This document shows positions 9,643 to 19,926 of a DNA stretch of 23,290 nt, one piece after another. The stretch is from a virus. Location of the stretch: IMG/VR virus record IMGVR_UViG_3300025096_001146, positions 1 to 23,290 of that record, one strand, 5' to 3'. The number at the start of each line of letters is the position of its first letter. Within the stretch, counting starts at the first letter, position 1. The position numbers and the translations under genes were made by a program. The notes below the pieces were generated by a model that ran no database searches, was not told where the DNA came from, and saw nothing but the letters and a program-made list of their open reading frames with translations.

Positions 9643-9654
9643 CTTGCTTATAAT

Positions 9655-9660
9655 AAGGAG
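9655..9660 (+). promoter_or_regulatory. ribosome-binding site fixing the Hsp20 start
   Basis: AAGGAG is followed by a 7-base spacer to ATG 9668. The in-frame TTG at 9644 lies upstream of this site and is not the start. Confidence 0.8.
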
Positions 9661-9667
9661 AGAAAAA

Positions 9668-10102
9668 ATGGTCAATAAATATGGCTTAGTGGATTTTAGA
9701 GATCCAATATTTTCATCGTTGTTTGTGGGCTTTGATGGTCTTTTTGAAAACATGACACAGATGTCACAAGGTTCAAAAAGTCTTCCGAGTTATCCACCTT
9801 ATAACGTGATACAAGACGGAGACGATTACGTAATTGAAATCGCTCTAGCAGGCATCAATAAAAAAGATATTGATATTACCCTGCAAGAAAATACTTTAAC
9901 AGTTTCTTATCAATCTTCAGAAGAAGAAGAGTCCGATAAAAAATTGTACAAAGGAATTGCACAAAGATCTTTTAAAAGACAATTCAATTTGTCTGAAGAT
10001 ATTGAGGTCGAAGGTGCGAACTTTGTTAATGGTATGTTGAATATCTTTTTACAAAGGATTATTCCTGAAGAAAAGAAACCAAAGACAATAAAGATTAAAT
10101 AA
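9668..10102 (+). CDS. hsp20: small heat-shock protein, Hsp20/alpha-crystallin family
   Basis: 144 aa from the ATG with the strong Shine-Dalgarno; the size is usual for an IbpA-type sHSP. The N-terminal arm is Phe-rich (FSSLFVGFDGLFENM, about residues 15-29). The alpha-crystallin domain spans ~44-134, opening with PPYNVIQDGDDYVIEIALAG and including the G-x-L strand (GMLNIFLQR, 122-130) typical of the family. The tail ends IKIK, giving the I-x-I motif (141-143) used for oligomer assembly. sHSPs hold unfolding proteins in the cytoplasm without ATP. Phage-encoded Hsp20 is known from cyanophages. Here it is the first gene of the operon that encodes the curli-like proteins, so it may buffer aggregation-prone substrates before export; that link is inference. 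The next gene begins one base after the stop. Confidence 0.93.
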   Translation: MVNKYGLVDFRDPIFSSLFVGFDGLFENMTQMSQGSKSLPSYPPYNVIQDGDDYVIEIALAGINKKDIDITLQENTLTVSYQSSEEEESDKKLYKGIAQRSFKRQFNLSEDIEVEGANFVNGMLNIFLQRIIPEEKKPKTIKIK

Positions 10103-10103
10103 A

Positions 10104-10256
10104 ATGGAATATGATTTTGAAAGAAAGTGGACAAGAGTAAATAAGGAATATCTTACGACCTTGGTGGATGATCACCAAAGGTATCGTTTTATGTTTCGTC
10201 TTCTCTTTGCTTACTTAATTCTTGATCTATTAATACATTTTGATTTATTGTCATAA
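10104..10256 (+). CDS. small membrane peptide (50 aa), unknown
   Basis: 50 aa, ATG 10104, one base after the Hsp20 stop; its TAA overlaps the next ATG (TAATG), a sign of translational coupling. The N-terminal 28 residues are charged and soluble (MEYDFERKWTRVNKEYL...), followed by one hydrophobic helix (about 29-48, FMFRLLFAYLILDLLIHFDL). The topology is probably N-in with a short C-terminus at the periplasmic face. The mRNA has an imperfect hairpin at 10159-10181 (TTGGTG/CACCAA core, loop GATGAT) inside the coding region. I do not recognise the family. Position before two other small membrane proteins and csgF/csgG suggests a membrane accessory of the cassette or a lysis factor. Confidence 0.6.
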   Translation: MEYDFERKWTRVNKEYLTTLVDDHQRYRFMFRLLFAYLILDLLIHFDLLS

Positions 10257-10552
10257 TGGCTGAAGCATTTAAGTTAATTGCAGAACTAGGATTACCGATA
10301 GCTGGTGGTTTAATAATGGCTTTCTTTATATTCCTAGTAATGAAACAATTAATGGAGAGCCTTGTAAACGAAATAAAAACAATACAAGGCATTTCTAAGA
10401 TGCTTATTACTAGAGCAGCTACCATGAATAATGATATTATTCGTATAGATACGAGTGTGTCTTCAGCACTTAACTTGCCTCCTGACTTAGACAGAATTGC
10501 AAGAGCAGAGAACTTTGTAGAGGATGGTAAGATTGATGCTCGAAGAGATTAA
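10256..10552 (+). CDS. small membrane/coiled-coil protein A (paralogue of next gene)
   Basis: 98 aa. ATG 10256 overlaps the previous stop. One membrane helix spans ~12-33 (PIAGGLIMAFFIFLVMKQLM), followed by a helical, probably coiled-coil stretch to ~73 with heptad-like Ile/Leu/Met spacing. The tail is polar and charged (FVEDGKIDARRD). It aligns without large gaps to the next protein: the hydrophobic N-terminus matches in register, and the coil ends in similar motifs (NNDIIRIDTSVSSALNL against DQDMIRLQQKVNTALSL). The pair therefore arose by tandem duplication. Possible roles are holin-like or a membrane adaptor to the CsgF/CsgG pore. No established function is known to me. Confidence 0.7.
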   Translation: MAEAFKLIAELGLPIAGGLIMAFFIFLVMKQLMESLVNEIKTIQGISKMLITRAATMNNDIIRIDTSVSSALNLPPDLDRIARAENFVEDGKIDARRD

Positions 10553-10554
10553 AT

Positions 10555-10809
10555 ATGGACATTGTACAGCTCGTATCGGAATTTGGTTTCACTACTGTCA
10601 TGGTAGTTGGTCTAGGTTATTTTGTTTATTTTGTATGGCACACAATTACTACGATTATCAAACCTGCTGTTAAAGACATGAGCAAAACAATCATTCGATT
10701 GACTGATCAACTGAGACTGCTTGATCAAGATATGATAAGATTACAACAAAAAGTAAATACTGCTCTGAGTTTAAAAGAGCAAGACGAACAAAGTGAGCAG
10801 AAAAATTAG
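10555..10809 (+). CDS. small membrane/coiled-coil protein B (paralogue of previous gene)
   Basis: 84 aa, starting two bases after the previous stop. The N-terminal membrane helix is about residues 12-33 (FTTVMVVGLGYFVYFVWHTI), followed by an amphipathic helix with regular hydrophobic spacing to ~72 and a Glu/Gln/Lys-rich tail. It is clearly related to the preceding 98-aa protein (shared D-I/M-I-R-I/L and A-L-N/S-L motifs at the coil end). The last 17 bases overlap the csgF start, so its translation may feed csgF. Two related membrane proteins could form a hetero-oligomer. The pair may be lysis proteins that were already there before the curli genes, or inner-membrane partners of the export system; the sequence does not decide. 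Confidence 0.7.
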   Translation: MDIVQLVSEFGFTTVMVVGLGYFVYFVWHTITTIIKPAVKDMSKTIIRLTDQLRLLDQDMIRLQQKVNTALSLKEQDEQSEQKN

Positions 10810-11287
10810 TATAAATTTAGCATCTTTTATTACAAGTATATTAATAATGTACTTGTGGAGTTCTGCAGTATTCGCAGATGAAATAGTTCATCAGTTTAAG
10901 AGTCCTAGTTTTAATGGTGTCGCAACTTCTTCACACTATTTAACCATTGATGAACAAGAAAAAACAAGAAGAGATGCAATCGCAGAAGATGTTGAGAATG
11001 CTCTTAAAGAAGCAGAGCGTGAGGCAGAGAATACAACACTTGCAAAATTTTTAAGAAACTTAGAATCAAGAATCTACTCTCAGCTTTCAAGAGACATTGC
11101 AGAATCTTTGTTTGATTCTGAAAAAGGTGGCACAGGCGGAGAGTTTGAATTAGAAGGTAGCACGATACGTTTTGTTAATGACGGAATTAATATAACGCTC
11201 ATTGTTATTGATGAAAACGGAACGATAACTGAGATTATTATTCCAGTAGGTATATTTGGTATATGTTCAGACGAGTGTGGAATATAA
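10793..11287 (+). CDS. csgF: curli assembly factor CsgF homologue
   Basis: 164 aa from GTG 10793. A signal peptide spans residues 1-28 (FITSILIMYLWSSAVFA, cleavage before DE). The mature protein opens DEIVHQFKSPSFNG, which aligns in register with the start of E. coli CsgF (Q-F-R-N-P-N-F-G-G), the part that plugs into the CsgG channel. The middle is helical (EQEKTRRDAIAEDVENAL...). The C-terminal part (about 117-151, FELEGSTIRFVNDGINITLI then ENGTITEIIIP) matches the CsgF beta-rich end. Identity is well supported (family PF10614). Oddities: mature position 17, Asn in E. coli where it forms the second channel constriction, is Thr here. An extra C-terminal GICSDECGI adds two Cys. The gene overlaps csgG by 25 bases. 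CsgF normally secretes through CsgG and couples it to fibre nucleation at the cell surface. Confidence 0.88.
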   Translation: MSRKISINLASFITSILIMYLWSSAVFADEIVHQFKSPSFNGVATSSHYLTIDEQEKTRRDAIAEDVENALKEAEREAENTTLAKFLRNLESRIYSQLSRDIAESLFDSEKGGTGGEFELEGSTIRFVNDGINITLIVIDENGTITEIIIPVGIFGICSDECGI

Positions 11288-12102
11288 AAACATTAATAGT
11301 ATTGTTGCCTTTTGTCTTACAAGGGTGCGCAAGTTTTGCACCTGTAGGACACACAGGATGTGATTCAATATTTGAGTGTGTTGAGAAACCAGCAATTGTA
11401 AGACCAACACAAGATAAATTAATTAACTTACCTGCTCCTAATCAGAAAGCTGTTGTAGCTGTTTACTCTTTTAAAGACTTAACAGGACAAAGAAAGAGTT
11501 CGCAGAAGATGGCACTGTTTAGTACAGCCGTAACTCAAGGAGCTGACAATTATCTTATTGACGCTTTAAGAAGTGCAGGCAAAGGCAGGTGGTTTGTTGT
11601 AGTAGAGCGATCTGGATTAGACGGCTTAACCAGAGAACGACAACTGATTAAGAATACTAGGCAAACTTACAACGGAGAAAAAGGAAATACTTTAAAACCT
11701 TTACTCTTTGCAGGGTTAATTATTGAAGGAGGGATCGTTCAATACGATACAAATATTGGAACAGGTGGAAATGGAGCAAGGTATTTAGGTATAGGATCTA
11801 ATAATCAATGGAGACAAGACGAGATTACAGTATCATTAAGAGCTGTTCTTGTTCAAACAGGTGAGGTTATGATCAATACAATGGTTAGTAAAACAATATT
11901 AAGCGCAGGAGTAAACCGTGATGTGTTCCGTTTTATTGAAATGGGAACTGAGTTGGTTGAGTTAGAAACAGGCTATAGTCAGAACGAAGCAATGGGTTAT
12001 GCGACAAGATCTGCAATTGAAGAAGCTGTTTATTCTTTGATACAACAAGGTTTAAAACAACAATTATGGGATTTTAATTATGAAGAAGAAATTATTAATT
12101 AG
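11263..12102 (+). CDS. csgG: curli secretion pore lipoprotein CsgG homologue
   Basis: 279 aa, close to E. coli CsgG (277 aa precursor). A lipoprotein signal ends with LQGC (lipid-anchored Cys22). A Cys-containing insert (GHTGCDSIFECV) follows, then the conserved body: LPAPNQKAVVAVYSFKDLTG (56-75), FSTAV (86-90), RWFVVVERSGLDGL, the transmembrane hairpin region with GGNGARYLGIGSNNQW, SKTILSAGV and VFRFIEM, ending LIQQGLKQQLWDF. These match PF03783. CsgG forms a nonameric outer-membrane channel that exports curlins. The loop lining the constriction reads KSSQKMALF (78-86), where E. coli has KPYPASNF: the final Phe is kept, but the Tyr and Asn are lost and the loop is one residue longer. GTG 11275 is an alternative start that would shorten only the signal peptide. 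It overlaps csgF and the following curlin gene. Confidence 0.95.
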   Translation: MFRRVWNIKTLIVLLPFVLQGCASFAPVGHTGCDSIFECVEKPAIVRPTQDKLINLPAPNQKAVVAVYSFKDLTGQRKSSQKMALFSTAVTQGADNYLIDALRSAGKGRWFVVVERSGLDGLTRERQLIKNTRQTYNGEKGNTLKPLLFAGLIIEGGIVQYDTNIGTGGNGARYLGIGSNNQWRQDEITVSLRAVLVQTGEVMINTMVSKTILSAGVNRDVFRFIEMGTELVELETGYSQNEAMGYATRSAIEEAVYSLIQQGLKQQLWDFNYEEEIIN

Positions 12103-12769
12103 CTTTATAGCAATGTTTGCTTTTTCTGTTGTCTATGCAGGAAACAACGACATTTATATAACACAATCAGGAACGGGTTTGACTATGAACATAGATCAAA
12201 TTGGTGACACAAACAAAGTCGGTACATCACAGACTAGAGCAACCTTTACTGGAACCTCTATGACTGTGGACATTGACCAAGTAGGAGACAGCAACACGAT
12301 GGCTGCTTCAGTAGCGCAAGGTAATAGCACCTCATTTACTGCATCAACGACAGGAGATAGTAATACTACTACATTGGCATTGGGTGCAAGCGGAGACGTT
12401 GCCAATACAGACTTTGATTATGCTGCTACTGGTGACTCAAACACAGTGACATTCACACAAGGTGCTGCTGCAACCGCAACTGCTGGTAATCAAGACATTG
12501 TGATTGCAGGCACATCAAATGATTTAAATGCCACTTGTGAGGTGGTTGGTTGTATCAACAATTGGGATGTGGACGGAGATTCAAATGACATCGACACCAC
12601 TCAAACAGGAAACTCAGATCATTCTATCACAGCCGACATAACAGGAAGCACAAACAACATAGACATAGATCAAACCAACAGCACTGGTAGTGTATCAGAT
12701 GTTGTGGTTCTAACAGCAACAACGAGCAACGGCACTATAGACATAGACCAATGCACAAGTGGCTGTTAA
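12080..12769 (+). CDS. secreted curlin-repeat (amyloid-type) protein 1
   Basis: 229 aa. The signal peptide is 1-20 (KKKLLISFIAMFAFSVVYA, cleaved before GN). The mature protein is Gly/Asn/Thr/Ser/Asp-rich with curlin-type Q-x-G-x-x-N units: ITQSGTG (27-33), IDQIGDTN (38-45), IDQVGDSN (65-72), degenerate TTGDSN and ATGDSN (90-95, 116-121), TQTGNSD (~174), IDQTNSTG (196-203) and IDQCTSGC (222-229). Curlin repeats stack as a beta-solenoid amyloid in CsgA/CsgB. Repeats are irregularly spaced and decay in the middle, so it could be a nucleator or minor subunit. Four Cys form two close pairs (153/158 and 225/229), unusual for curlins. There is no Trp except W162. It follows csgG with a 23-base overlap, so it is a likely CsgG substrate. 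DNA is noticeably richer in G+C than the virion genes. Confidence 0.85.
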   Translation: MKKKLLISFIAMFAFSVVYAGNNDIYITQSGTGLTMNIDQIGDTNKVGTSQTRATFTGTSMTVDIDQVGDSNTMAASVAQGNSTSFTASTTGDSNTTTLALGASGDVANTDFDYAATGDSNTVTFTQGAAATATAGNQDIVIAGTSNDLNATCEVVGCINNWDVDGDSNDIDTTQTGNSDHSITADITGSTNNIDIDQTNSTGSVSDVVVLTATTSNGTIDIDQCTSGC

Positions 12770-13848
12770 TATTATTTCTTTTTATACCTAACGTATATTC
12801 TGAAATAGGAGAGATCTCAGAGTTGCGTGGCAACGGAGAGATTCTAAGACAATCAGAAGGAGATAAGTTACTTGCAGAGCTGGCACTGGATATTCTTTCT
12901 TATGATGATATACGGACAGGCAATGGTCGTATTGCTGTCAGGTTTGTCGATGACTCTGTTATAAAGCTTACAGAACATTCAAAGATTGTCGTTGACGAAT
13001 ACATTTTTGATCCTGATCCATCTAAAAGTAAGCTTGCTCTTAACATGGCTAGTGGTACAGCACGTTTTATCACTGGTGCATTAGGAAAGATAGATAAAAA
13101 AAACATTAAGATACGTACTCCTAGTGCTACAGTAGCTGTCAGAGGAACAGACTTTACGACAACAGTAGATGAACTAGGCAGGTCTTTAGTAATTCTTTTG
13201 CCGAATCCTGACGGCACTTCTTCAGGAGAAATCACAGTAGAGACGATGGCAGGCATAGAGGTTTTAAATAAACCTTATCAAGCCACGATGGTTAGTATGT
13301 CTGAAAGTCCTCCGACTAAGCCAGTGACGTTGGTTAATATGTCATTAAACTTTATAGACAATCTTTTGATAGTCAACCCACCAGACGAAGTTCAGCAAGC
13401 AGTAGATGAACAAGCACAGAGTTCAAACAACGTGCTTGACGTAGACTTATTAGAAGAAAATGATTTAGATGACAACGACCTTGATAAAGATGAGCTAGAA
13501 GAAGAGACAACTAGACTAGACATTGACTTCTTAGCAGTAGACTTCTTACAAGATTTATTAGAAATAATGGAAACGACTGCTTCTGGTAAGAAAGAAAAAG
13601 GAACAGACGGAGAGTTAGACGGAGTACAACTAGAAGGGATCATCCCTAACTTTGATCAAAATGCACAAGTCTATAGTTTTGTAGACGGAGAAATTTTAAC
13701 ACTGGTTAGACAAGTAGAAAACACAATTGATTTAGAACTTGATAAAGGTGGAGCATATAACATACAAATACTTTCTGCTGGAAAGTTAATAAACATAACA
13801 GTAAACGGAGGCGGAGAAAATGAGATCGTTATTAATCAGTCTGATTAG
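12751..13848 (+). CDS. secreted FecR-domain protein with acidic region and curlin-like C-terminus
   Basis: 365 aa. The signal peptide is ~1-17 (KWLLILFLFIPNVYS, cleaved before EI). A FecR-type beta domain (PF04773) spans ~50-145: RTGNGRIAVRFVDDSVIKL, a SGTARFITG strand, then the hallmark RTPSATVAVRGTDF (122-135). Next come ~60 ordinary residues, a strongly acidic Asp/Glu/Leu stretch (~229-262), and a C-terminal beta segment ending EIVINQSD. It lacks the cytoplasmic anti-sigma part of classical FecR and has no membrane helix after the signal, so it is a periplasmic or secreted domain rather than a FecIR regulator. In bacteria, FecR-domain genes are often neighbours of CHASE2 cyclase genes (from memory). 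The INQSD end is shared with the second curlin protein and resembles a curlin half-repeat. It overlaps the curlin genes on both sides (19 and 29 bases). Confidence 0.85.
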   Translation: MHKWLLILFLFIPNVYSEIGEISELRGNGEILRQSEGDKLLAELALDILSYDDIRTGNGRIAVRFVDDSVIKLTEHSKIVVDEYIFDPDPSKSKLALNMASGTARFITGALGKIDKKNIKIRTPSATVAVRGTDFTTTVDELGRSLVILLPNPDGTSSGEITVETMAGIEVLNKPYQATMVSMSESPPTKPVTLVNMSLNFIDNLLIVNPPDEVQQAVDEQAQSSNNVLDVDLLEENDLDDNDLDKDELEEETTRLDIDFLAVDFLQDLLEIMETTASGKKEKGTDGELDGVQLEGIIPNFDQNAQVYSFVDGEILTLVRQVENTIDLELDKGGAYNIQILSAGKLINITVNGGGENEIVINQSD

Positions 13849-14533
13849 TCTGTCGTCTTTTATTATCTATGCTGGAGACAACAGCGTTGAAATAAGAACC
13901 AAAGGCAGCGGTTCTTTGATACACATTGACCAAGTAGGAACAAGCAATACTACTAGAGTTTGGTGTGGTTTATCTGAAGGCACTTACACAACACACAGTT
14001 GTAACAATGCAGAAATAGATATAGATCAGAACGGAACAAGCAACACAGCAAAAGCCTACAGCCAAGTTGCTACACACACAGGCAATGAATACAAGATTGA
14101 TCAAGACGGTAATGACAACATTGGTTACATAGATGCCGATGATGATGGCAGCGACATGGACATTGTGCAGGACGGCAACAACAACGATGCTGAAATCTAT
14201 ATGCAAGGCGACAACAACATATATGAAATCACACAGACGGGTGATGACAAGGAGGGAGAGATCAGAGCATTCGGTGATAACTCAAACTTCTCAATCAATC
14301 AATCAGGCAGTGGCGAACACTATGCCAAGATATATGCAAGCACAGCAGCCGACAACAATGATGCAAGCATAACTCAGACAGGTAGTGGCGACCATTATAT
14401 GAAGTTGAACTTCTATACCGATGATTACGATGTGACGGCAACACAATCAGGAGCAACCAACAAATCAATCACAGTCAACTACAACTGCACCACCAATTGC
14501 AATAAAACATTGACGATTAATCAAAGTGATTAG
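13820..14533 (+). CDS. secreted curlin-repeat (amyloid-type) protein 2
   Basis: 237 aa. The start is fixed by the strong GGAGGCGGAG at 13807-13816, inside the FecR-domain gene. The signal peptide is 1-18 (RSLLISLISLSSFIIYA, before GD). Curlin-type units are more numerous than in protein 1: IDQVGTSN (36-43), IDQNGTSN (68-75), IDQDGNDN (93-100), IVQDGNNN (115-122), a YMQGDNN variant (127-133), ITQTGDDK (137-144), INQSGSGE (159-166), ITQTGSGD (184-191), ATQSGATN (207-214) and terminal INQSD. Spacing is about 22-32 residues, near the curlin repeat length. It is strongly acidic with few Lys/Arg. Cys are paired (49/61 and 223/227); the terminal C-x3-C pair also occurs in protein 1. A major fibre subunit exported by the CsgG homologue is the likely role (inferred). 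Confidence 0.87.
   Translation: MRSLLISLISLSSFIIYAGDNSVEIRTKGSGSLIHIDQVGTSNTTRVWCGLSEGTYTTHSCNNAEIDIDQNGTSNTAKAYSQVATHTGNEYKIDQDGNDNIGYIDADDDGSDMDIVQDGNNNDAEIYMQGDNNIYEITQTGDDKEGEIRAFGDNSNFSINQSGSGEHYAKIYASTAADNNDASITQTGSGDHYMKLNFYTDDYDVTATQSGATNKSITVNYNCTTNCNKTLTINQSD
13831..13848 (+). repeat. C-terminal coding repeat, copy 1 (INQSD-stop)
   Basis: 18 bases at the end of the FecR-domain gene match 15 of 18 bases at 14516-14533, the end of curlin gene 2. Both encode I-N-Q-S-D and stop with TAG. The three differences lie together in the Gln-Ser codons, so the peptide is conserved while its DNA has drifted. Confidence 0.7.
14516..14533 (+). repeat. C-terminal coding repeat, copy 2 (INQSD-stop)
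   Basis: End of curlin gene 2, the partner of 13831-13848. The GTG start of the cyclase gene (14526) lies inside this repeat, giving GTGATTAG with the stop codon just downstream of the start. Confidence 0.7.
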
Positions 14534-16337
14534 AATTAAACAATTTCTTGTTCTGTTGGTTTTATTGGTAATGCCTTTGGTGTTCCAACCAACCTTTTAC
14601 CAAGTACTAAAACTTAAGACATTTGATGCACTTGTCGAAGAAAGACAACCTTCAAATTATTTTTCAATATTAAACATAACTGAGAAAGACGTTGAGACAG
14701 AAGGCGGTTATCCTTTTCCTAGAAAAAGATTGGCAGAAATACAAAATGAACTTATCGATCAAGGCGCGGTTGGTGTTGGTTGGGTTATATCCTTTCCTCA
14801 ACCAGATCGTTTTGATGGCGATATGGCATTCGCAGAAAGCCTTGCATCTGCTCCAAGCATCTTAGCAACCTTTGAAAATGAGAACGGAGTATATCCACTC
14901 ACTACAGGTACTGTTATATTGGGTGAAGATCACGGAGGTTTTCAAGCCAAAGGAGTAATAGAGAATGTTCCGCTACTAAGAGAAGCAGCCTATCAAGGAA
15001 TTGCTGTAGCACCCACAGACGTAGATCAATTGGTTAGGCGAATGCCTTTGTTACTGAGGACTCCTGATGGTTGGGTGTCTGCATACGGCACAGAGGTTCT
15101 AAAAGTATTAGCAGGTGCGGATACTTATGTCATTAAAACAAACGAGAATGGCATCCAAGAAGTCAGAGTCAAAGGAATACCTGCTGTACCTACAGATAGT
15201 CTAGGTCGTAAATGGATCAGTTGGGTAGATACTCCAGAGTTTTCTCTTGATGACATAAAACAAACAGACTTAATTAAAGATCGCTTTGTATTTGTAGGTG
15301 TCACAGCTTTAGGAGTGATGCCTCAGATTGCAACACCTGTAGGATTATTGGAACCTCACAAGATACAAGCAGCTTTATCTGAATCAATCTTAATTCAAGA
15401 CAGTCCTTCTATTCCTGACTTCGCAGTTTCAATAGAACTTCTGATGTTTATTGTCGGTGTTTCTTTTGTGTGGCTTGTTATAATAATGGCAGGTATAAAC
15501 ATAGGATTAGTGTTGGCTTCGATGATGCTTGCTTTTACAATAGCAATGGAGTTTCATTTTGTAAGAACACAAGGAATGTTGATAGACTTTACGTGGTCTT
15601 TCGTTGCTCAGTTTATTGCAGCAAGTGTTGCATTCTACATAAGATTCAGAGAACAATACAAACTACGACAACAAATTAAGAAACAATTTGAACACTATCT
15701 TGATCCTCGTCAAGTAAAACAACTACAAAAGAATCCAAACCTTTTAAAGTTAGGCGGAGAAAAAAGATATGCAACGTATCTGTTTACAGATGTTAGAGGA
15801 TTCACCTCAATGTCTGAGTCATTGCCACCAGAAGATGTTACATACATTATGAATAAAGCCTTAACTGCACAGCAAAAAGCAGTACAGAAACACGAAGGCA
15901 TGGTCGATAAATACATAGGCGATGCAATGATGGCTATATTCAATGCGCCTTTGGATCAAGAGGATCACGAAACAAAAGCAGTTAGCTGTGCCTTGGATAT
16001 AATAAAAAATATGGAAGAGTTAAACAAAGAGCTTGAGCAAAAAGAACTGCCATCAATTGCCATAGGTATCGGGATTAATAGTGGCGAAGCTGTGATAGGA
16101 AACATGGGAAGTGAGTCTCGTTTTGACTACACTGCTATAGGAGATGCCGTCAATACAGGAGCAAGACTAGAATCAGCCACAAAGGAAGCAGGTGTCGATC
16201 TTCTTATAGGAGAAACAACAGCTATGTTTAATAAGCACCAAGGCTTTGAGTTCGTAGATGAGATCTCAGTCAAAGGAAAAGAAGAACCTTTGAAAGTATT
16301 TACAGTTTTTAGAAATCAAATGCTTCCTAGTAGGTAG
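14526..16337 (+). CDS. CHASE2-domain class III adenylate cyclase, membrane-bound
   Basis: 603 aa from GTG 14526 (8-base overlap with the curlin gene). The N-terminal membrane helix is ~5-22. A CHASE2 extracytoplasmic sensor spans ~30-298 (YPFPRKRLAEIQNELIDQGA, DRFVFVGVTALG and PHKIQAAL are typical). Three helices follow (~299-320, 324-345, 355-372), then the standard linker HYLDPRQVKQLQKNPNLLKLG and the cyclase domain ~413-597. All expected catalytic residues are present: metal-binding D422 (FTDVRGFT) and D466 (IGDAMMAIF), adenine-selecting K462 and D534, and transition-state N543 and R547 (NTGARLES). ATP to cAMP is therefore predicted. The sensor faces the periplasm, where the FecR protein would be. 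An intact, full-length bacterial-type cyclase is unusual in a phage. It ends the cassette; 49 bases later the convergent minus-strand module ends. The partner sensing signal is unknown. Confidence 0.94.
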   Translation: MIRIKQFLVLLVLLVMPLVFQPTFYQVLKLKTFDALVEERQPSNYFSILNITEKDVETEGGYPFPRKRLAEIQNELIDQGAVGVGWVISFPQPDRFDGDMAFAESLASAPSILATFENENGVYPLTTGTVILGEDHGGFQAKGVIENVPLLREAAYQGIAVAPTDVDQLVRRMPLLLRTPDGWVSAYGTEVLKVLAGADTYVIKTNENGIQEVRVKGIPAVPTDSLGRKWISWVDTPEFSLDDIKQTDLIKDRFVFVGVTALGVMPQIATPVGLLEPHKIQAALSESILIQDSPSIPDFAVSIELLMFIVGVSFVWLVIIMAGINIGLVLASMMLAFTIAMEFHFVRTQGMLIDFTWSFVAQFIAASVAFYIRFREQYKLRQQIKKQFEHYLDPRQVKQLQKNPNLLKLGGEKRYATYLFTDVRGFTSMSESLPPEDVTYIMNKALTAQQKAVQKHEGMVDKYIGDAMMAIFNAPLDQEDHETKAVSCALDIIKNMEELNKELEQKELPSIAIGIGINSGEAVIGNMGSESRFDYTAIGDAVNTGARLESATKEAGVDLLIGETTAMFNKHQGFEFVDEISVKGKEEPLKVFTVFRNQMLPSR

Positions 16338-16861: not shown

Positions 16862-18781
16862 TTATACTATCTCACACGCACCTGCACTACAGGCTAGTTC
16901 TTTAGTGTTCTCAGTCATGTCTTCCTTTTCGTATTCAGTGATTAGATCCCAATTAATTTCGTGAACAGTCTTATTCATCCACTCTTTGTATTCATCTTCT
17001 GTGATCTCTTGGTAAGGTGCTTGTTGGTAGGAATGATCTGCAAAGGGCAGAAAAGAAACTCCTGAGATCTTATCAAAGTTATCCCATACCCATGCACCAA
17101 CCTTTAACCACTCAGCTTCTCTAACTGAGATGGTGGCTGATGGTTTGTGTTCACACCAATGATCTTGATACATCTTCCAGATTTCTAAATGTTCTATGGC
17201 TGATAGATCTATTCTTGTTAAAGATTTACTAGGAGACTTAATAGGAAAGTAAAACACTAAGGTATGTTCAGGCTTAGTAATATCGTCTTCGTGATACACT
17301 CCTTGATCAACCATGAGCTGTGCAATAGGATCTTTCTTATCAGCACGAACAGTTCTTATATAGTATTCGCTGTGTCTTGTATGAATACCTGATGCACTGT
17401 CCACTAACTGACTCACAGTACCGCTTGGTTTAACACAAGTAATAGCAACAGATTGTTTGATTCCTAAATTAGCTGCCCAACCTTCGTTCATTATAACGGC
17501 TGCATTTTTCAAAACTTCTAATCTTTTAGGTAAATTATTTCCTTCGATCAATCTTTTATTATCCATGATGCCTGTAAGAGACACACCCAAGAGTGCTTCT
17601 TCCTCTGTGTTGTCTTTCCAAGCTTTTGTCAAGTATCTAAAGTTAGTTAAGGTTGCTTGAAACGTACCAAGAATAGTAGCGAGTTCTACTTTTTCTTGGA
17701 GAGTTTTCCAGGTATCATCAGGCCTAACAACAACTTCTGTTAGGTTACAGAACTGTTTGTTGCGTAGTATGATTTCACTGCAAGGATTACAACCAAAGTC
17801 TTTGTACTCTTCTCGTCTTCCATTCTTAGCAGCTTGTTCTTCAGCAGCTTGACGATTAAAGATACCACGCTCACCACTTTTAGAATCATACAGCGATAAC
17901 CATTCGCGCATGAATGCTCCCATCTCTGCTGAGTCTGTATAGGCTACTGAGTTATTGGACAATGCTCGATGCTGGCTGTGTTCCCACCAAGAACCTGACT
18001 TAGCATTGCGCATACGCTCGTCTGAGAGGTTGCTGAGTGAGATTAAAGCGCTACGTCTAACACCACCCACTACAACAACTTCTGCGATCTTACACATCAA
18101 ATCATGACAATCAATTGATACGAGTTTCTTTTGGTTCTTACTGAGTGCATCTTTAAAAATGTTTATAGTAAAATGCATGAGATCATCCAAAGGTGCTGGA
18201 CCACTGGCACGACCACCAAAGGTTTTAAGTCTTGCGCCTTGAGGTCGAATGTTACTAAGATCCCACTGAGGAATGTGTCCTGCATAAAGCAAAGACATCA
18301 GTTCTTTGTATGCTTTTGCCCATCCAATCTTTGAGTCAGCTACTTTGATGATAGTATCTGTCTGATGTAGTTCTTCAGGTAGATCAGGAAGTTTATTAAC
18401 GTACTGTCGTTCTACGCTGAATCCAACACCTGTGCCACACATAAGTATGTAAAGTGTTTCATCAAATGAACGAACAGTATCAACAGCAACATAACTACAG
18501 TTGAATCCTGCTACGTTGTCTCGTTCTAAAGCTGTGCCTGCTGACATTAAGGCTCGCATACTTGGCATTATATCCAAGTTAAGCACAGCTTGTTCTAACT
18601 GTGGTCGCATGTCTGCTATATCTGTATCGTTATTCTTCTTTAAATGCTCTTGCATAAAGTCAAAGTATCTTGCGACTGTCTCTTGCCAAGTCTCTCGTCT
18701 TCCTGTATCTTCGTTCCATCTTGCGTACCTGCTAAGATGTATGAACTCTTGATAGGTTGTAGGTAGTTTAGTTTGTTCCAC
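16862..18781 (-). CDS. nrdJ: adenosylcobalamin-dependent ribonucleotide reductase (class II, monomeric)
   Basis: 639 aa from GTG 18781, which has AGGAG 10 bases upstream and a 14-base overlap with the previous gene. It makes deoxynucleotides for phage DNA synthesis by reducing ribonucleoside triphosphates with B12. Active-site residues are visible: Cys95 (GFNCSYV), Cys334 and Glu336 (CNPCSEI) and Cys345 (QFCNL); the 11-residue Cys334-Cys345 spacing equals Cys408-Cys419 of the Lactobacillus enzyme. VVGGVRRSALISLS and VKPSGTVSQLVDSASGIH are further family motifs. The C-terminal ACSAGACEIV supplies the Cys pair that shuttles electrons. No NrdB, NrdD or intein was seen. Class II enzymes are frequent in marine phages, and use of this one requires B12 in the infected cell. 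It lies in the same operon as polymerase and nucleases. Confidence 0.95.
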   Translation of the reverse strand: MEQTKLPTTYQEFIHLSRYARWNEDTGRRETWQETVARYFDFMQEHLKKNNDTDIADMRPQLEQAVLNLDIMPSMRALMSAGTALERDNVAGFNCSYVAVDTVRSFDETLYILMCGTGVGFSVERQYVNKLPDLPEELHQTDTIIKVADSKIGWAKAYKELMSLLYAGHIPQWDLSNIRPQGARLKTFGGRASGPAPLDDLMHFTINIFKDALSKNQKKLVSIDCHDLMCKIAEVVVVGGVRRSALISLSNLSDERMRNAKSGSWWEHSQHRALSNNSVAYTDSAEMGAFMREWLSLYDSKSGERGIFNRQAAEEQAAKNGRREEYKDFGCNPCSEIILRNKQFCNLTEVVVRPDDTWKTLQEKVELATILGTFQATLTNFRYLTKAWKDNTEEEALLGVSLTGIMDNKRLIEGNNLPKRLEVLKNAAVIMNEGWAANLGIKQSVAITCVKPSGTVSQLVDSASGIHTRHSEYYIRTVRADKKDPIAQLMVDQGVYHEDDITKPEHTLVFYFPIKSPSKSLTRIDLSAIEHLEIWKMYQDHWCEHKPSATISVREAEWLKVGAWVWDNFDKISGVSFLPFADHSYQQAPYQEITEDEYKEWMNKTVHEINWDLITEYEKEDMTENTKELACSAGACEIV

Positions 18782-19106: not shown

Positions 19107-19505
19107 TTATTTGTCCTCTTTTTTTGTGTATTTCTTTTTAACTCTTTCGCTAATAGGTACGGGATTTCCATATTCATCAATACGAACAAACTTCATATCG
19201 GTATTAACTACAATCTCTTGAGAGTCTGTTCTTACGTTGTGTCTTCTTGCTTCGATGTTGAGTGTAATACTAGACCTACCTACTTTCTTTACTTTTCCCC
19301 AAATCTCTATAAGTTGTCCTGATTTAACAGGTCTTCTGAACTCCATCTTAGCGACCAACACTGTAACAACTCTAGGAGAATTACAAATCCTAGAAGCCAT
19401 TGACGCGCCTGCTTCGTCTAGCCAAGACATCATGTGACCACCAAACAGATTATCGTGATAACCTAAGTCACCTTCTTTACACATCTTTGTACTAATCAGT
19501 TGCAT
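19107..19505 (-). CDS. acyl-CoA thioesterase, hotdog fold (YciA-like)
   Basis: 132 aa from ATG 19505, preceded by GGAAAG. A longer in-frame start at 19571 would overlap the endonuclease gene by 80 bases and add 22 residues not typical of the family. Signature: HDNLFGGHMMSWLDEAG (17-33 from this start), with Asn19 and Asp30 at the catalytic positions of YciA-type enzymes. Then come VTVLVAKMEFRRPVKSGQLI (47-66) and the strand VGRSSITLNIEARR. It should hydrolyse acyl-CoAs to free fatty acid and CoA in the cytoplasm; substrate length is unknown. A Lys-rich tail follows (VKKKYTKKEDK). A metabolic gene inside a replication operon is notable; it could alter host lipid or CoA pools. Fold assignment is strong, physiological role is not. 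Confidence 0.9.
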   Translation of the reverse strand: MQLISTKMCKEGDLGYHDNLFGGHMMSWLDEAGASMASRICNSPRVVTVLVAKMEFRRPVKSGQLIEIWGKVKKVGRSSITLNIEARRHNVRTDSQEIVVNTDMKFVRIDEYGNPVPISERVKKKYTKKEDK

Positions 19506-19926
19506 CTTTCCACTCTTTAGGTAAACTCTCTGCGCTGTACCATCTGAATCCATTCTTTGATGCCCACTCACCGTGGCTTCTTTTTGTGCCGTCTCTTCTC
19601 ATCTTTGCATTAGGCATGGGTGCTGATGGATTAGAAAATAGAAATACTAATTCACAATCGTCTGGCAGTATTTCTTTGATCCATTTGTATTTAGTGTATT
19701 CAGCATAATCCCAAAACCTTCCTTTTGCTTCTAAGTATATTACTTTATCTTCTAAGATACGAATGAAATCAGGATGATATTTGTGTGGTATCGAATACTC
19801 TATGATTCCTTTGTGGTGTTCCCAGTGTTGTAGTTCTTCTTGGTGAAGGTCGTACTCCCATTTAGAATCGTATCCTTTAGGTAATCCTTTTTCAGTAGGT
19901 CTTTTCTTTCTTGGTTTTCTTTTCAT
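19492..19926 (-). CDS. T7-type endonuclease I (Holliday junction resolvase)
   Basis: 144 aa from ATG 19926, which lies one base after the previous stop codon. A TTG at 19947 is also in frame, but the ATG gives active-site numbering almost equal to T7: Glu24, Asp53, Glu66 and Lys68 here against Glu20, Asp55, Glu65 and Lys67. Motifs: SKWEYDL, HKYHPDF and VIYLEAKGRFWDY, then LVFLFSNPSAP and HGEWASKNGFRWYSAESLPK. It resolves branched DNA before packaging and helps break down host DNA. The N-terminus is strongly basic (MKRKPRKKRP), for DNA contact. It overlaps the thioesterase start by 14 bases. Identification as family PF05367 is well supported. Confidence 0.92.
   Translation of the reverse strand: MKRKPRKKRPTEKGLPKGYDSKWEYDLHQEELQHWEHHKGIIEYSIPHKYHPDFIRILEDKVIYLEAKGRFWDYAEYTKYKWIKEILPDDCELVFLFSNPSAPMPNAKMRRDGTKRSHGEWASKNGFRWYSAESLPKEWKDATD

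Follow-up and report, generated by a model that had tools for sequence, protein, structure and literature searches.

Curli cassettes are a known feature of ocean phages. A cassette that includes a cyclase gene was described in 2022 in HTVC023P-type podophages and pelagimyophages (PMC9599517), and the curli part has also been described in HTVC008M relatives and in Melnitz (PMC7029224, PMC9004378). Two cellular systems resemble the signalling part of this cassette: in Burkholderia, a biofilm operon places a periplasmic FecR protein beside a CHASE2 membrane sensor (PMC5192318), and in S. meliloti, cAMP rises when CHASE2 cyclases receive a signal by way of an outer-membrane barrel (PMC13001267). 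By analogy, both may be taken as precedents for parts of a route leading from FecR to CHASE2, with the difference that the Burkholderia operon has a histidine kinase as its output and contains no curli genes.

Here we analysed a stretch of 23,290 nucleotides from an IMG/VR virus record (the window). A preliminary description reported an intact membrane adenylate cyclase at 14526–16337 and treated it as a stand-alone gene; it is instead the last gene of the published curli/FecR cassette, a context which that description missed. The cyclase finding is therefore largely known, the cassette with its cyclase having been published for pelagiphages. What we add is that the operon also occurs in bacterial chromosomes and in other types of phage, and that the likely host seems to lack any cAMP receptor of a known kind. 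The cassette and its borders consist of the following features.

9644–10102, plus strand: Hsp20, a phage gene at the 5' border of the cassette
10256–10552, plus strand: small protein with a single transmembrane (TM) segment, matching phrog_18771
10555–10809, plus strand: small single-TM protein, matching phrog_18771
10793–11287, plus strand: CsgF (E=4.2e-12)
11263–12102, plus strand: CsgG, outer-membrane curli secretion channel with a lipoprotein signal (E=7.4e-54)
12080–12769, plus strand: first curlin-repeat protein, with signal peptide (Curlin_rpt at the Pfam cut-off, E=3.4e-4)
12751–13848, plus strand: exported FecR-domain protein (FecR E=2.4e-13)
13820–14533, plus strand: second curlin-repeat protein (CsgA/B-like), with signal peptide (Curlin_rpt E=1.3e-12; NCBIfam CsgA-like E=7.9e-18)
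14526–16337, plus strand, GTG start: predicted CHASE2-class III (IIIb-type) adenylate cyclase, 603 aa
16862–18781, minus strand: B12-dependent (class II) ribonucleotide reductase, the convergent 3' border of the cassette

Six of these genes overlap head to tail in the order csgF-csgG-curlin-fecR-curlin-cyclase, with the second curlin gene running 8 nt into the cyclase start. CsgG, CsgF and curlin-repeat subunits together mark the cassette as a type VIII secretion (curli) system. Pfam scans of the cassette ORFs returned no match to the CsgE gate or the CsgD regulator, both of which alphaproteobacterial curli operons generally lack as well (PMC3521004), and a scan for promoters and terminators gave no excess over shuffled sequences. 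Counting from the small TM gene, the order small TM-CsgF-CsgG-curlin-FecR-curlin-cyclase is that of the pelagiphage cassette, with which the window shares its genes, their order and the ocean phage setting, and in which the cyclase was already named (PMC9599517); the window differs in its backbone, which is HTVC115P-like and not of the HTVC023P type. At 80 IMG/VR loci, as far as each contig extends, the genes again follow the order CsgF-CsgG-curlin-FecR-(curlin)-cyclase. The complete genomes of the cultured phages HTVC008M and Melnitz share this order up to the cyclase, which is 34–36% identical to that of the window. The two small TM proteins are related to each other, and the gene at 10555–10809 is the positional counterpart of the 'histidine kinase' of PMC9599517. 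We find this label unsupported, as neither small protein (84 and 98 aa) matched the kinase domains HisKA or HATPase even at E<=1.

The cyclase has the architecture of a complete membrane sensor enzyme, in agreement with the preliminary description. Residues 12–312 match Pfam CHASE2 (PF05226, E=3.7e-29) and residues 416–588 match Guanylate_cyc (PF00211, E=1.4e-21), which places the protein in the class III nucleotidyl cyclase fold. The AlphaFold2 model (mean pLDDT 89.2) contains four membrane helices at residues 2–20, 300–322, 324–348 and 356–388, and gives a layout of TM 2–20, a periplasmic CHASE2 domain at about 22–298, three TM helices within 300–388 and a catalytic domain at 411–595. CHASE2 thus sits between one N-terminal TM helix and a TM bundle, the arrangement of a CHASE2 sensor. 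The modelled catalytic domain superposes on Spirulina CyaC (class IIIb, 1wc1) with an rmsd of 1.6–1.8 Å and a target TM-score of 0.86–0.89. CyaC shares the catalytic fold and the K/T purine pair, whereas it is soluble according to its PDB entry and its solved part lacks CHASE2, unlike the membrane-bound window cyclase.

Five of the six catalytic residues listed in the preliminary description stand. The metal aspartates D422 and D466, K462, and N543 and R547 are all found in the window cyclase, and each is conserved in all but at most one of 83 phage homologues; the two metal aspartates with the catalytic Asn and Arg are the class III signature. The sixth, D534, was misassigned: when aligned with CyaC and with CyaB of P. 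aeruginosa, the sequence has its purine-selecting position at T536, seven residues N-terminal of N543, and D534 is its conserved neighbour. Of the 83 homologues, 74 have T at position 536, 8 have S and one has D, Thr or Ser at this site being characteristic of class IIIb. Because of the K462/T536 pair, we assign the predicted adenylate cyclase to class IIIb, which also contains CyaC and mammalian sAC; in sAC-like enzymes, a threonine here is regarded as a likely predictor of bicarbonate regulation (PMC3383692). The corresponding residues in Cya2, a CHASE2-regulated guanylate cyclase (2w01) that E488K switches to ATP (PMC5995499), are E and G, and K462/T536 led us to reject a guanylate cyclase identity. 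Pairwise dN/dS values of 0.04–0.21 indicate purifying selection, so the ORF is neither a chance reading frame nor a decaying one; together with the conserved catalytic residues, these values also count against a dead enzyme. The gene probably encodes a real membrane enzyme that makes cAMP, and we predict it to be active. The cyclase of Melnitz, a phage of OM43 (L083:6929–8980), differs from those of HTVC008M and the window in carrying D536, which is class IIIa-like, and N543S; its activity is doubtful and may be impaired owing to N543S. In two other loci (L097:4843–6666 and L014), the cyclase frame is broken into two ORFs, through a frameshift or an assembly error.

The cyclase was described as phage-borne, and the flanks bear this out with structural and replication genes of phage type. 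The window DNA polymerase is 52% identical to that of pelagiphage HTVC115P, and the window also holds phage structural genes, an endonuclease I and a Cas4-type exonuclease; tblastn of two window structural proteins against the phage collection gave no match. In HTVC115P, an Hsp20 gene and ribonucleotide reductase genes face the same junction, with only small ORFs in the cassette's place. The HTVC115P-like polymerase and this shared junction suggest SAR11 as the probable host. The reductases themselves are of different classes, that of the window (16862–18781) being class II and B12-dependent, while the HTVC115P genes encode the alpha and beta subunits of a class I enzyme. A 4HBT-family thioesterase at 19107–19571 overlaps the endonuclease I gene.

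Curli cassettes occur widely among the phages of ocean viromes, and we found this one in at least four phage backbones: HTVC023P-type podophages (identified from the flanks), myophages, the HTVC115P-like window and siphovirus-like contigs. One siphovirus-like carrier (the contig of L079) encodes a portal, terminase, capsid, protease, tape measure, major tail protein and lambda gpJ-type tail fibre, and no earlier report of siphovirus-like cassette carriers was found in the literature searched. That the window might be a bacterial contig miscalled as viral gains some footing from the whole-cassette homologues that exist in bacteria. Against this stand the structural genes, polymerase, endonuclease and exonuclease named above, the presence of the cassette in complete cultured phage genomes, and the identities of the window FecR and cyclase, which are 37–43% to the bacterial versions and, to most viral versions, 61–78% for the cyclase and 46–89% for FecR. 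We regard the chance of a miscalled contig as negligible, and host contamination is rejected by the phage flanks and the cultured carriers. A cassette or cyclase of the phage type is also present on contigs (L092, L093, L094, L097, L098 and L099) assigned to Pelagibacter, Neomarinimicrobiota, Maricaulis and Flavobacteriaceae MAGs; these contigs probably come from phages and were grouped with bacterial genomes in binning.

The gene order of the cassette also occurs in three alphaproteobacterial chromosomal loci, in Hyphomonas sp. TMED17 (on a contig of 705 kb) and in two Caulobacteraceae MAGs, all three flanked by metabolic genes. FecR and the adenylate cyclase have been stated not to lie within bacterial type VIII secretion operons (PMC9599517), which these three loci contradict. 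The bacterial operon is cellular, lacks the two small TM genes and is 37–38% (cyclase) and 49–52% (CsgG) identical to the window. In six further genomes from the same order, where CsgG was found beside a CHASE2 cyclase, the CsgG-like gene is weak and lies in opposite orientation, and we do not count these as curli operons. In a tree of 84 sequences, the curli-linked cyclases (32 from phages and three from bacteria) separate from 49 other alphaproteobacterial CHASE2 cyclases with an SH-aLRT of 99; by this tree, phage and bacterial curli-linked cyclases share a common ancestry. The bacterial source operons also offer genetically tractable relatives in which to study the link between FecR, CHASE2 and curli.

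Within the window-type cassettes, the CsgG and FecR trees resolve two deep types with a support of 100, which the cyclase tree mixes. Keeping the types together on the cyclase data was rejected (p-AU 0.023, lnL difference 56.6), the p-AU being somewhat optimistic as the tested group was first noticed on trees. Identity to the window follows the same pattern, with the cyclase staying at 61–69% where CsgG and FecR drop to 45–55%. On these comparisons, the cyclase gene has recombined between cassettes independently of CsgG and FecR, which speaks against a close co-evolution of the cyclase with a single FecR. The small TM proteins (10256–10809) also fall into two sequence types within window-type cassettes, at about 55–95% versus 24–36% identity to the window; these do not track the CsgG/FecR types and appear to be another exchanged piece of the cassette.

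FecR was labelled an iron-dependent regulator in the published cassette (PMC9599517), and in the window it is an exported protein. Since it has a signal peptide and neither a membrane anchor nor an internal TM segment, it is not a classical sigma regulator of Fec systems, whose N-terminus is cytoplasmic and which is anchored in the membrane, and a Pfam scan of the cassette genes found no sigma factor or TonB receptor that could stand in for the fecI and fecA partners. Its C-terminal end carries a curlin-like motif (...NGGGENEIVINQSD). As defined post hoc, after inspection of the data, this motif occurs in 76 of 77 phage FecRs and two of three bacterial curli-linked FecRs, in none of 11 FecRs adjoining curli-free CHASE2 cyclases and in four of 1021 other ORFs. 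The Pfam curlin model has no match at the FecR C-terminus, and a local curlin-repeat HMM scores it weakly, so we keep the curlin-like end at motif level, as a lead. FecR-CHASE2 cyclase pairs without curli are frequent as well, which suggests that the two proteins are a functional pair.

Building on gene identities, operon layout, catalytic residues, purifying selection and common ancestry with the bacterial curli-linked cyclases, all established by sequence comparison, we tentatively favour, at a little short of an even chance, a phage-borne alphaproteobacterial curli operon with its own envelope sensor, in which FecR and CHASE2 would relay the state of curli export to cAMP. CsgG and CsgF would export the two curlin-repeat proteins; the secreted FecR, possibly by means of its curlin-like C-terminus, would sense in the periplasm how far curli are being exported or assembled, and would act on CHASE2 in the inner-membrane cyclase; CHASE2 would then switch the class IIIb catalytic domain, presumably a homodimer, and with it the presumed synthesis of cAMP in the infected cell. 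The contact between FecR and CHASE2 and the role of curli state as the signal are inferred, and the coupling of the cyclase to a periplasmic signal envisaged in the preliminary description is plausible. In a bolder form, which is possible if rather unlikely, the cassette would be a self-monitoring amyloid machine: nascent or surface curli would capture the curlin-like end of FecR, and CHASE2 would pass this on to cAMP. Such a machine would have evolved in Caulobacterales-type bacteria, been acquired by several unrelated ocean phage groups, and be read in SAR11 by a yet unrecognised cAMP receptor.

The preliminary description suggested that the phage deliberately changes host cAMP, which by the usual route would reprogramme host transcription through CRP-type regulators. 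In favour of this, the catalytic residues are complete and cAMP-CRP control is common in other bacteria. Among 117 SAR11-order genomes, however, a class III cyclase occurs in one, on a phage contig, and cNMP-binding domains occur in eight, near the cut-off; the proteins inspected were of ABC-transporter type or acyltransferase/GDSL proteins, with no CRP-like protein among them. No cNMP-binding domain was found in 17 phage records, including those of HTVC008M and Melnitz, so a phage-encoded receptor was rejected as well. The bacterial source genomes of the cassette do have such domains. As SAR11 lacks class III cyclases and CRP-type receptors, a change of host cAMP regulation has no known reader, and we consider the CRP route improbable; the observation made in the preliminary description holds with one residue corrected, and its interpretation is partly supported. 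The likely host is apparently without any known cAMP receptor, which leaves the downstream half of our own proposed circuit missing as well, and a selected cyclase in phages of such hosts poses a testable question on the role of cAMP in an infected SAR11-like cell. The lack of a CRP-like reader in host and phage would fit a working cyclase with a non-classical output, through export of cAMP, draining of ATP or a non-CRP target. A possible target of this last kind is a protein of 863 aa in one SAR11-order genome (L145:1998–4589), which combines a cNMP-binding domain with acyltransferase and GDSL domains; it is a candidate cyclic-nucleotide-responsive protein with matches in about seven of the 117 genomes. 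Its rarity in SAR11 and its lack of a link to infection weaken this explanation, which we hold to be unlikely.

The cyclase might be an ancestral leftover that travels with the curli genes and has ceased to matter, a reading favoured by some published cassettes that have no cyclase (PMC9599517) and by the N543S change in Melnitz; the near-invariant catalytic residues, the low dN/dS, the identity to the window that stays high where CsgG and FecR drop, and the retention of the gene after recombination between cassettes make this very unlikely. It is just as hard to credit that the enzyme makes another cyclic nucleotide (cGMP, cCMP or cUMP) or serves as a decoy against a host Pycsar-type defence. 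PADLOC PycC models do match the catalytic domain, with E-values down to 2.3e-28, as is expected of members of the same class III superfamily. No Pycsar effector was matched among the six proteins tested, so the pairing of a PycC-type cyclase with an adjacent effector is not seen, and the purine pair is that of the adenylate cyclase CyaC, not the E/G of the GTP-using Cya2.
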